Shown here piece by piece: positions 17,659 through 54,337 of a DNA stretch of 64,000 bases; positions within the stretch are counted from its first letter, which is position 1, and every line of letters starts with the position of its first letter. Where the stretch lies: the NCBI GenBank assembly GCA_008501765.1, contig QQUE01000002.1, forward strand, positions 1,238,336 to 1,302,335. The letters run 5' to 3'. The position numbers were made by a program, and so were the translations under genes. Source of the stretch: Calditrichota bacterium (GTDB lineage: Bacteria; Zhuqueibacterota; Zhuqueibacteria; Zhuqueibacterales; Geothermadaptataceae). Below the pieces are notes generated by a model. That model did no database searches, was not told the DNA's origin, and saw only the letters and a list, made by a program, of their open reading frames with translations.

Positions 17659-18339
17659 TTGAATCAAAATTGCAACGCACTTGTTGTTTATGCAAAATAC
17701 CCTGAGCCCGGAAAAGTAAAAACACGGCTTGCAGCCACAATTGGGGAGATATTAGCGGCCGAAGTTTATTCTCGTTTTATTCACCATATCTTTAAAAAAC
17801 ATCAGCGTGCAGATAAAAAATACGATTTCCTGTGTGCTGTCGCACCTGCCAATAAACTGGACTCTTTTAAAAATACATTTTCCGGTCCACGGACATTTAT
17901 CCCGCAAATATCTAAGAGCGATTTGGGGAAACGCTTATTCGATACCACCCAAAAAGTCCAAAATCTGGGCTACAATAAAATTGTGATAATTGGAACAGAT
18001 AGTCCGGCTTTACCAATGCAGCATATCGAGCAGGCATTTGTTGCGCTTGATAAAGGTGATCTTGCGCTTGGCCCAACTTCCGATGGCGGCTATTATTTAA
18101 TCGGAATGCGAGAACCGAATCAACAAATATTTGAATCCATTCGCTGGAGCACAGAATTTACGCTAAAGGATACGATGAAAGCAGCTAATCGCACGAGATT
18201 AAAATACTCTTTACTGCCCGAGCACTTCGATATCGATGAAGGACAAGATTTACACTATCTTCTGCAAATTGACAACGAGGGAATTTTCCCGGAAAATTTG
18301 AAGTCAAAGATTTATGCGGCTTTACAAGAAAAAATATGA
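17659..18339 (+). CDS. DUF2064/TIGR04282-family glycosyltransferase-like protein
   Basis: 226-aa nucleotidyl/glycosyltransferase-fold protein of the CofC-like DUF2064 group. Visible motifs: N-terminal VYAKYPEPGKVKTRLA (the P-loop-like nucleotide-binding segment), IIGTDSPALP (acidic metal site), and LALGPTSDGGYYLIGM. It probably transfers a sugar or nucleotidyl group; the exact reaction is not established. Start TTG at 17659 with GAGGAG four bases upstream. It precedes a polyprenyl-type GT2 by 13 bp, a pairing that is frequent, so both likely act on the same lipid-linked sugar product. Confidence 0.82.
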   Translation: MNQNCNALVVYAKYPEPGKVKTRLAATIGEILAAEVYSRFIHHIFKKHQRADKKYDFLCAVAPANKLDSFKNTFSGPRTFIPQISKSDLGKRLFDTTQKVQNLGYNKIVIIGTDSPALPMQHIEQAFVALDKGDLALGPTSDGGYYLIGMREPNQQIFESIRWSTEFTLKDTMKAANRTRLKYSLLPEHFDIDEGQDLHYLLQIDNEGIFPENLKSKIYAALQEKI

Positions 18340-18352
18340 AGAAATTAGGCTA

Positions 18353-19078
18353 ATGAATAATCAAAAAGTGGTCGTTATAATTCCCGCCTTAAATGAAGAA
18401 AAATCAATTGGAAAAGTAATCACTGCCTTGCCGGAAAACACCTGTGAACAAGTCATAGTCGTGGACAACGGTTCGACTGACAACACAGTGTCGGTGGCAA
18501 CTGATTCAGGAGCAACTGTTGTCTTTGAGCCGCAGCGTGGTTATGGGCAGGCCTGTTTAACCGGAATTTCCACAGCGCGTGACTTTGACCCGGATATCGT
18601 CGTTTTCCTCGACGGAGACTACAGTGATTTTCCCGAGCAAATTGGCGAGGTCATTCAGCCAATCCTTGCCGGACAAGCGGACATGGTTATCGGCTCACGA
18701 ACGCGGGGCAGACACGCGCCGGGTGCTTTGTTGCCGCAGGCACGGTTCGGAAATTGGCTTGCCTCGTGGCTCATCAAGATTTTTTGGAAATTTCAATATT
18801 CAGACCTCGGCCCATTTCGCGCCATTCGCTGGGACAGCTTATTAGCTCTCAATATGCAGGATAGAAATTATGGCTGGACGGTCGAGATGCAAATTAAGGC
18901 ATTGTTAATCGGTTTGCGTGTAAAAGAAGTGCCGGTTAATTACAGAAAACGGATTGGCACCTCAAAAGTAACGGGGACTATTTCGGGATCGATTCGAGCT
19001 GGTTATAAAATATTATGGGTCATATTTAAATATGGCTTTTTCTCGAAAAAGCTGACGATACAACCAATCAATCAATGA
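18353..19078 (+). CDS. Family 2 glycosyltransferase, dolichyl-phosphate-mannose-synthase-like
   Basis: 241-aa GT-A glycosyltransferase: IIPALNEEKSIGKVI, VVDNGSTDNT, FLDGDYSDFP (DxD-type metal site), GSRTRG, then DLGPFRAIRW and the late ALLIGLRVKEVPVNYRKRIG. No C-terminal membrane pair, so a cytosolic or peripheral enzyme that probably makes a polyprenyl-phosphate sugar. ATG 18353 is preferred over the upstream frame at 18314, which overlaps the previous gene. Its 3' end overlaps the convergent diguanylate cyclase by 11 bp. Confidence 0.87.
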   Translation: MNNQKVVVIIPALNEEKSIGKVITALPENTCEQVIVVDNGSTDNTVSVATDSGATVVFEPQRGYGQACLTGISTARDFDPDIVVFLDGDYSDFPEQIGEVIQPILAGQADMVIGSRTRGRHAPGALLPQARFGNWLASWLIKIFWKFQYSDLGPFRAIRWDSLLALNMQDRNYGWTVEMQIKALLIGLRVKEVPVNYRKRIGTSKVTGTISGSIRAGYKILWVIFKYGFFSKKLTIQPINQ

Positions 19079-20306
19079 TTTTTAGCTTGGATTTGCTGGG
19101 CCCGGGAATTTTATTTGTAATTAGGGCAATATCGCCGGTCCTGTTCCTACCCTGAGATTTTGCCCAATACAGCGCCTGATCAACCATTTTGATGAGTACA
19201 GATATTTCGGCGGAATCTTCGGGCAACGAGGCAATACCGATGGAAATGGTTAATTTGCGGGTCTTGTTTGAATCCGAATTTTGTTGTGCGGATTTTTCAA
19301 CGGCGAGTCGTAGTTTTTCTGCTACTTTAAATCCTTGTTTCTTTGCTGTTTCCGGTAAGATTACCATAAACTCCTCCCCACCATAACGCGCAAGAAAATC
19401 ACCTTTTCGGAGAATTTTTTGCAAGCAGCGCACAACATTTTTCAAAGCAATATCTCCGACTGGATGGCCATATTTATCATTGTATTTTTTGAAATGGTCG
19501 ATATCGATCATCAGCAAAGTGAGGGGATGATTGTAGCGATGTGCCCGCTCGATTTCGTGTGAAAGTTGGTTGTCAAAAAAGCGCCTGTTGGGGATTTGCG
19601 TCAAAGAATCGGTTATCGATTGCTGTTGAAATTGTTCGAATTCATTAATTTTCGCTAGAATTTGACCCAAATGCGTCGTTAAATTATCTAGGAAAAAGAG
19701 TTCTTTTTCTGAAAATGCGTGTATTTTTTTGCTGTAAATTGTAAGATAACCAACTATCGCATGTTTTTTTAATAAAATGGGCTTAATCAGAAGGCAGCCT
19801 TGGTGAGAAAAAACTTTTTTGGATTTTGAATTTCGGAATTCAGGAATATCGGGAATATAAATATCCTGATCGTGCCGCTTCTTCTGTTCGTTAATTAAAA
19901 TTGATGGAATATTCAAACCTGCCGTCATCACCGTCTTATAATCATCGATTTTCTCATCCCTTAATTCAAGCCGTAATCCAGTAAATTTCAAGTACGATTT
20001 TAAAATAGTTTTCACTTTTTTTAGTACTGAACGCTGAGAGAATTCGTTGCTGAATTCTGCGAACAATTCGTACAGATGTTTGATTTCATCCGTATCGAGC
20101 TGAATTTTTGCAGCACCCAAATTAGTGTCGGACGAGTGGAAGTATTCATCGTTTTCTTTTTTTAAATGGATTGGAAAGTCGGGATATGTCGTTCCATTTT
20201 GTTTGGAACGGTGAAAACTTTTCATCCGGATTGTATTAAAAGTAGACGATTTTTGTTCATCCACTGACGATTTTGAAATTGGAATTATTTTCATTGTGCA
20301 GCCCAT
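19068..20306 (-). CDS. GAF-GGDEF diguanylate cyclase
   Basis: 412-aa predicted diguanylate cyclase making c-di-GMP from two GTP. A variable N-terminus (1-70), GAF-type sensor at about 75-225 (VGYLTIYSKK, FSEKELFFLDNLTTHLGQILAKI in positions 186-220), then GGDEF domain at 230-400: DSLTQIPNRRFFDNQL, MIDIDHFKKYNDKYGH, and the active-site GGEEF (309-313). The inhibitory I-site RKGD lies five residues upstream of GGEEF, so product feedback is likely. No EAL domain. The second Met (residue 5) is an alternative start. A very good sigma-54 promoter lies about 207 bp upstream at 20513-20528. Confidence 0.93.
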   Translation of the reverse strand: MGCTMKIIPISKSSVDEQKSSTFNTIRMKSFHRSKQNGTTYPDFPIHLKKENDEYFHSSDTNLGAAKIQLDTDEIKHLYELFAEFSNEFSQRSVLKKVKTILKSYLKFTGLRLELRDEKIDDYKTVMTAGLNIPSILINEQKKRHDQDIYIPDIPEFRNSKSKKVFSHQGCLLIKPILLKKHAIVGYLTIYSKKIHAFSEKELFFLDNLTTHLGQILAKINEFEQFQQQSITDSLTQIPNRRFFDNQLSHEIERAHRYNHPLTLLMIDIDHFKKYNDKYGHPVGDIALKNVVRCLQKILRKGDFLARYGGEEFMVILPETAKKQGFKVAEKLRLAVEKSAQQNSDSNKTRKLTISIGIASLPEDSAEISVLIKMVDQALYWAKSQGRNRTGDIALITNKIPGPSKSKLKIID

Positions 20307-20328
20307 CCTGGAGATCGTTTGGTGTCAC

Positions 20329-20339
20329 GTCATGATGAC
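20329..20339. promoter_or_regulatory. 11-bp palindrome in the leader of the cyclase gene
   Basis: GTCATGATGAC, a perfect palindrome 23 bp upstream of the cyclase ATG and inside the predicted untranslated leader; an outer TGTCA/TGACA pair surrounds it. Possible operator or RNA element; low confidence. Confidence 0.3.
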
Positions 20340-20512
20340 AACGGATAATTATATTTGGAAATCACAGGTGCTAAATTGTTAATTATTCTGTGTTAAACTG
20401 GATTGTTTTAAACGGTCTAAAGTTTAAAATAATACGACTGTCATTTAGCAGGTGTGAGTTGTGGAATTGGTGATTTTGCAGACTTTACACATGTAATTGT
20501 TTGCTTCTATTT

Positions 20513-20528
20513 GGCAATATGTATGCCA
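20513..20528 (-). promoter_or_regulatory. Sigma-54 promoter for the diguanylate cyclase
   Basis: On the minus strand: TGGCATA (20528-20522), CATA spacer, TTGC (20517-20514). It fits TGGCAYR-N4-TTGCW at every position but the last and has the GG-N10-GC core. Transcription would start near 20502 and run into the cyclase with a leader of about 195 nt. Confidence 0.65.
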
Positions 20529-20532
20529 CTCA

Positions 20533-21117
20533 TCAAACAGTTTGGAAGGTTGTTGGATTTGCAGCCGGGGAAATAGCTTTGGAGAGATATTTTAATAAAA
20601 CATCGTATTTGCCTGTCAATGTTTTTGCTTCAAAAGCGTTTACTTGAAAATTATAAAAAGCTTCCCTGTGTGGATTCGCCAGACAAACCCGCAACTTCGC
20701 GTTGCATTTACTGGCAAAATAAGTGGCAAAAATATTAAAGTCGGCATTGAAATCAACTAACAGGTCGAAGGAAATTCCGTCATATTCATTCATTAACATT
20801 TTTGTGGGGGTTCCTAAAAATGTCAAATCCTGTTTTTCAATAATTCGGGCATTTGCTAAAATATCCTGGGGAAAATCAAATGCTGGGTGGGTGTTTAAAA
20901 CAAGGTATTGAAATGTGGTGTTATTGAAAAGTCCAATTAACTCCAGCCGTTTTTCCAATGCGACGGGCAGTGATTTTACATCTTCCGGCAAGAGAATAAT
21001 GCCATTTCTGATCTTGCTAAATTGCAAGGTGACATCGATCATCTCCGCCTGACGGCGTTTTTTTGCCCGCCAAATCAACAGCATTTTCGAAATATGATTT
21101 AATGGATTTTGAAACAT
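20533..21117 (-). CDS. GT9/DUF6913-like protein, N-terminal half only
   Basis: 194-aa protein. The order of strands and motifs (IRNGIILLPEDVKSLP, LVLNTHPAFDFP, ISFDLLVDFNADFNIFATYFAS, and RVCLANPHREAFYNFQV) resembles DUF6913 and the N-terminal Rossmann half of GT9 heptosyltransferases (where a 'DLVIDL' strand is followed by a chain recognising a lipid acceptor). The nucleotide-sugar-binding C-terminal half of a GT9 is absent, so it is either a family of its own or a shortened relative. It starts at ATG 21117 with a basic helix. Function unknown. Confidence 0.5.
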   Translation of the reverse strand: MFQNPLNHISKMLLIWRAKKRRQAEMIDVTLQFSKIRNGIILLPEDVKSLPVALEKRLELIGLFNNTTFQYLVLNTHPAFDFPQDILANARIIEKQDLTFLGTPTKMLMNEYDGISFDLLVDFNADFNIFATYFASKCNAKLRVCLANPHREAFYNFQVNAFEAKTLTGKYDVLLKYLSKAISPAANPTTFQTV

Positions 21118-54321: not shown

Positions 54322-54337
54322 TGGCATAGTGTTTGCC
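54322..54337 (+). promoter_or_regulatory. Sigma-54 promoter for the outer-membrane operon
   Basis: TGGCATA (54322-54328), GTGT, TTGC (54333-54336), C. It matches TGGCAYR-N4-TTGCW in all but the last base and has the GG-N10-GC core. A start near 54348 would leave a 140-nt leader to the lipoprotein at 54488, which has AAGGAGG at 54474-54480. Confidence 0.72.

Follow-up and report, generated by a model that had tools for sequence, protein, structure and literature searches.

The 64,000-nucleotide stretch of DNA analysed here (the window) carries a diguanylate cyclase gene and a DUF6913 gene side by side on its minus strand, with a predicted sigma-54 promoter element in the 226-nt gap between them. 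The relevant features are the following.

19068..20306, minus strand: diguanylate cyclase gene with a GGDEF domain and a weak GAF-like region (PF00990 profile, motifs)
20307..20502, minus strand: predicted 5' leader, its start at ~20502 placed from the -12 position
20329..20339, no strand assigned: palindrome GTCATGATGAC in the leader, at chance level and without conservation
20513..20528, minus strand: predicted sigma-54 -24/-12 promoter element TGGCATACATATTGCC (exact consensus match; kept in 6/6 readable gaps of family f1, see below)
20533..21117, minus strand: DUF6913 gene upstream of the predicted promoter, a conserved neighbour of the cyclase
54322..54337, plus strand: the window's other exact sigma-54 element, which follows closely on a sigma-54 activator gene and precedes a predicted lipoprotein-like gene by 166 nt

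The cyclase is identified by its GGDEF domain (PF00990, E = 1.7e-53), with a GGEEF active-site motif at residue 309. The RxxD inhibitory site of such enzymes lies five residues before the GG[DE]EF motif, and an RxxD motif precedes GGEEF in this protein (RKGDFLARYGGEEF). The initial annotation had described the product as a GAF-GGDEF protein. The GGDEF assignment is certain, whereas the GAF domain is reduced to a hint, its GAF_2 match falling below the Pfam cut-off (18.4 versus 28.6 bits, E = 0.0027). Translation may start at the second ATG (20294), since the first ATG is missing in the relative G002. At its other end the cyclase gene is met by a converging glycosyltransferase gene (18314-19078, plus strand), and the two ends overlap by 11 nt (window 19068-19078).

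A DUF6913 gene (at least 25 bits) lies upstream on the same strand in 37 of the 44 cyclase loci examined, across many families of the class. In its predicted structure (pLDDT 88.9) the DUF6913 protein is closest to GT9 glycosyltransferases, over their N-terminal half, scoring Z 12.7 against 3tov (148 residues, 3.2 Å) and Z 11.4 against WaaC; the best Foldseek E-value was only 1.5e-3, and for another fold. The GT9-like resemblance of the model is that of a common fold and shows no function. No paper on DUF6913 was found in the open-licence literature searched.

The consensus of sigma-54 promoters is TGGCAC-N5-TTGC. The sequence TGGCATACATATTGCC is an exact minus-strand match to the pattern TGGCAYRN4TTGC, retains the fixed GG-N10-GC spacing of the TGG and TTGC core blocks, and lies 4 nt beyond the DUF6913 stop. 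Measured from the first ATG of the GGDEF gene (20306), the near end of the element is 207 nt away and its first base 222 nt, in agreement with the initial annotation, which had placed it on the minus strand 207 bp before the cyclase gene. The near-identity to the element at 54322 claimed there holds as well, all 12 non-spacer positions being the same at 54322-54337 and 20513-20528. A loose scan of the 64-kb window alone (up to one mismatch) does not clearly exceed chance: it found 31 matches where shuffles average 23.4, and 7 of 100 shuffles reached that number. The case that the element is more than a chance match rests on genome-wide counts, on related genomes and on conservation at the cyclase locus.

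A scan of the source genome (5.9 Mb, 21 contigs), of the kind that the initial annotation had proposed, returned 16 exact sites for TGGCAYRN4TTGC and 8 for the reversed pattern, and gene context tells the two sets apart. All 16 exact sites lie at gene starts or between genes and none lies inside a long ORF, while 7 of the 8 control sites fall inside ORFs of at least 249 aa. At 14 of the 16, a same-strand ORF of at least 80 aa begins 38-222 nt downstream; at the remaining two the ORF as called starts right at the element, presumably an artefact of start-codon choice. The genes behind these sites, as judged by eye in translation, include three of flagellar type (flgB/flgC-like, fliR-like and flgF/flgG-like), one for a Lon-like protease, one for a sigma-54 activator, others for lipoprotein-like or outer-membrane proteins, and the GGDEF cyclase. 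An activator domain is encoded within 1 kb of 4 of the 16. The genome possesses one rpoN (a single Sigma54_DBD match, E = 1.3e-60) and 44 matches to the enhancer-binding activator domain PF00158, 39 of them above 200 bits.

The same contrast extends across this Calditrichota class, for which 63 genomes are available; 60 of them, including this one, were scanned. A W-extended pattern, which leaves out the site at 20513-20528 because that site ends in C, matched 808 times and its reversed form 145 times, and it was the more frequent of the two in 56 of the 60 genomes. The sigma-54 consensus is thus a reliable predictor in this class. No rpoN gene turned up in G005 (91% complete), although that genome carries the cyclase element, or in G002 (67% complete).

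The family to which the source genome belongs (f1) has seven genomes, one of which (G002) was set aside, its contig beginning 80 nt before the cyclase gene. The initial annotation had named absence of the element from close relatives as one of the observations that would speak against a promoter; in f1 the element is instead kept on the sense strand between the DUF6913 and GGDEF genes in all six readable gaps. The sequences are as follows.

G000 (source genome): TGGCATACATATTGCC
G001: TGGCATGTATATTGCT
G003: TGGCATAAATATTGCT
G005: TGGCATAAATCTTGCT
G004 and G006: TGGAATATGAATTGCA

This count allowed up to one mismatch with the GG and G held fixed; under the same rule the antisense strand and the reversed control gave 0, and shuffled gaps a mean of 0.02 of 6 (largest 2). 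Two of the six sites, in the near-identical sequences of G004 and G006, read TGGAAT, which is off consensus. In the congener G001 the element lies 222 nt from the ATG, exactly as in the source genome, and the best 20-nt window over the element is identical at 17 of 20 bases (85%). The leader between the same two genomes has a mean identity of 0.44 in 20-nt windows, and one window reaches 80%. In the other f1 genera the distance from element to start is 327-366 nt, counted to the first ATG.

Across the class, 44 cyclase loci from the 60 genomes were examined, of which 5 without a DUF6913 neighbour and 4 with gaps shorter than 40 nt were dropped, leaving 35 gaps; the other 16 genomes, in which no close cyclase-DUF6913 pair was recognised by eye, were left out, and start codons throughout are first-ATG approximations. 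A broad consensus, GG[CTA]AYN5TTGC, occurs in 14 of the 35 gaps and in four families: f1 (6/6), f6 (4/4), f10 (3/3) and f8 (1/1). With this broad consensus the element was not found in the sister family f2 (0/7) or in six further families (f5 0/6, f3 0/3, f9 0/2, and f7, f11 and f12 0/1 each). Since the broad form was set after the sites in G004/G006, f6 and f10 had been seen, its counts are descriptive. The stricter form GGYAYN5TTGC occurs in 12 of the 35 gaps, against an average of 0.07 for base shuffles, and its reversed, complemented, spacer -1, spacer +1 and antisense versions each gave 0 in the same 35. Spacing is exact in all 14 element-bearing gaps. In many f6, f8 and f10 sites an A or G replaces the first T. 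The element occurs in 14 of the 20 gaps of at least 150 nt and in none of the 15 shorter ones. Sites of the type TGGCATAATATTTGTA in f5 and f9 were not counted, because they lie inside the DUF6913 gene, where by eye their letters encode a GIIFV-type stretch, and they are taken as coding sequence. Kept at the corresponding place in related bacteria, the element is very probably real.

The element also appears to belong to this cyclase in particular, as it was found before none of the five other GGDEF genes examined in the source genome, out of nine GGDEF matches that include this one. An operon promoter ahead of DUF6913 was rejected: the element is absent from all 43 upstream regions searched, a number that pools two locus sets and counts several genomes twice.

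The predicted leader measures ~196 nt, or ~208 nt with the second ATG at 20294, and the 195 nt given by the initial annotation is plausible. In RNA folding it does not exceed shuffles (z = -0.58 and 0.18) and shows no conserved structure, and no Rfam family matched the window leader at the gathering threshold. Likewise, no riboswitch or known RNA scored above threshold at 12 cyclase loci. The only match at these loci, a sub-threshold L20_leader in G006 (L059 2881-2977, minus strand; 33.1 versus 58.7 bits, E = 0.008), lies downstream of the cyclase, far from the DUF6913-cyclase gap. The palindrome GTCATGATGAC, for which a regulatory role had been suggested, does exist at 20329-20339; the role itself was rejected, since palindromes with 5-bp arms are at chance level in the leader (2 seen, shuffle mean 1.66) and this one is not preserved in G001, the nearest relative. 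G003 and G005 resemble each other in the 3' part of the leader. The two g2 genomes (L063 and L061) differ from the other genera in having a conserved stretch between promoter and gene, in the last ~110 nt before the cyclase start; it contains GTCGATTATCGAC and ACCAGCGG and may represent a second promoter or some regulatory site.

Taken with the presence of rpoN and many activators in the genome, conservation in relatives supports the original proposal that the element is a minus-strand sigma-54 (RpoN) promoter of the diguanylate cyclase gene, which would be read leftward from ~20502; we give this sequence-based reading a probability of roughly 0.87. The sigma-54 holoenzyme binds the -24/-12 element, and an activator ATPase is needed for opening. 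By extension from this established behaviour, to which the closed complex, the need for an activator and the start site are all owed, sigma-54 RNA polymerase would wait in a closed complex at 20513-20528 until an enhancer-binding activator opened it with ATP. The transcript would then run leftward from ~20502 into the cyclase gene, and more of this one cyclase would raise c-di-GMP in response to a specific signal. Like known -24/-12 promoters, the locus has the GG and GC elements at the exact spacing, is oriented and positioned to read into a gene, and lies in a genome that carries rpoN and activators. It differs from most in its longer distance to the start codon; within the source genome, too, the 222 nt exceeds that of most other sites (38-189 nt).

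Two readings would deny the cyclase its sigma-54 promoter or shift the emphasis to the RNA. That the conserved sequence is another factor's binding site or a chance match, with the cyclase read from a different promoter, could draw on the AT-rich spacer and partly palindromic character of the element, whose reverse strand is one mismatch from the pattern, and on three weak minus-strand sites in the region that look sigma-70-like. This is highly improbable: spacing is invariant in the 14 element-bearing gaps and altered-spacing controls find nothing, relatives do not preserve the match on the reverse strand (antisense 0), and sigma-70-like sites do not stand out from shuffles in number (4 versus 2.4). 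It is also very unlikely that a regulatory leader or small RNA is the main product, the cyclase being read only when the leader permits. The long promoter-to-gene gap in f1 (222-366 nt) and the likeness of the G003 and G005 leaders in their 3' part would suit such an arrangement, but the leader has no Rfam match, folds no better than shuffles and is barely kept within the genus.

Accepting the sigma-54 promoter leaves the choice of activator, on which the initial annotation went further than the data: it placed the cyclase under the same kind of nitrogen- or envelope-signal activator as the element at 54322. Common -24/-12 bases imply the same sigma factor only, not which of some 39 activators acts. 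That claim is not supported: the flanks of 12 cyclase loci (some on short contigs of 5.7-6.5 kb) yielded no activator gene, the closest one known within the window lies ~33 kb off, at ~53 kb, and no common upstream site emerged. A search for a common dyad or 8-mer around the 14 promoters gave none above shuffles, which is weak evidence because the search was crude and took exact matches only. The genome is rich in activators, and excerpts from PMC3162934 describe a frequent link of sigma-54 regulons to the cell exterior, yet control by a nitrogen- or envelope-stress activator is unlikely given the flanks searched and the lack of a common upstream site. Membership of the cyclase in a flagellar sigma-54 regulon, coupling flagellar assembly to c-di-GMP, is doubtful, if a little easier to entertain. 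Three of the 16 exact sites in the source genome precede genes judged flagellar by eye, and within the order f1 combines FliG (6/7 genomes) with the promoter while f2 has neither (FliG 0/8). Over the class the association breaks down: f6 (FliG 0/4) and the three element-bearing f10 genomes lack a FliG match, whereas f3 has FliG yet no element in its three gaps. Flagella are therefore not the explanation for the class-wide conservation. We tentatively propose that one sigma-54-controlled cyclase, linked to DUF6913, is a long-kept c-di-GMP input of the class, answering to one dedicated, non-flagellar activator in at least four families, and that the promoter disappeared where the cyclase and DUF6913 genes came to lie near each other (0/15 short gaps versus 14/20 longer ones).

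Comparable arrangements have been proposed elsewhere. In excerpts from PMC3162934, which also describe a reduced sigma-54 promoter motif, sigma-54 promoters are predicted for the E. coli diguanylate cyclase genes yeaJ and yhjK. The likeness is that of a GGDEF gene behind a predicted sigma-54 promoter; the present case concerns a different phylum, and here the prediction gains support from a site that is conserved at one syntenic locus. Pseudomonas networks of the FleQ/FleR type, as described in PMC6120874 and PMC8335546, tie flagella to c-di-GMP through sigma-54, and the source genome likewise holds sigma-54, flagellar genes and predicted c-di-GMP synthesis together, but the element before its cyclase is also kept in families that lack FliG. 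Promoters of this kind have thus already been proposed ahead of diguanylate cyclase genes in other bacteria, and the conservation evidence within the class is the addition. In the open-licence literature searched, no paper was found for Calditrichota or Calditrichaeota with sigma-54, for Calditrichota with c-di-GMP, or for Caldithrix with diguanylate cyclase. General knowledge of sigma-54 or c-di-GMP is unchanged by this promoter. Its interest lies in a conserved entry point to c-di-GMP control in an almost unstudied class, where one cyclase of several would be under activator-dependent sigma-54, so that identifying its activator would name the signal.

The source genome departs from the sigma-54 consensus in preferring T over C at the sixth base. 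TGGCAT rather than TGGCAC occurs in 14 of its 16 exact sites, while several other genomes of the class (e.g., G020, G025 and G015) mostly show TGGCAC.
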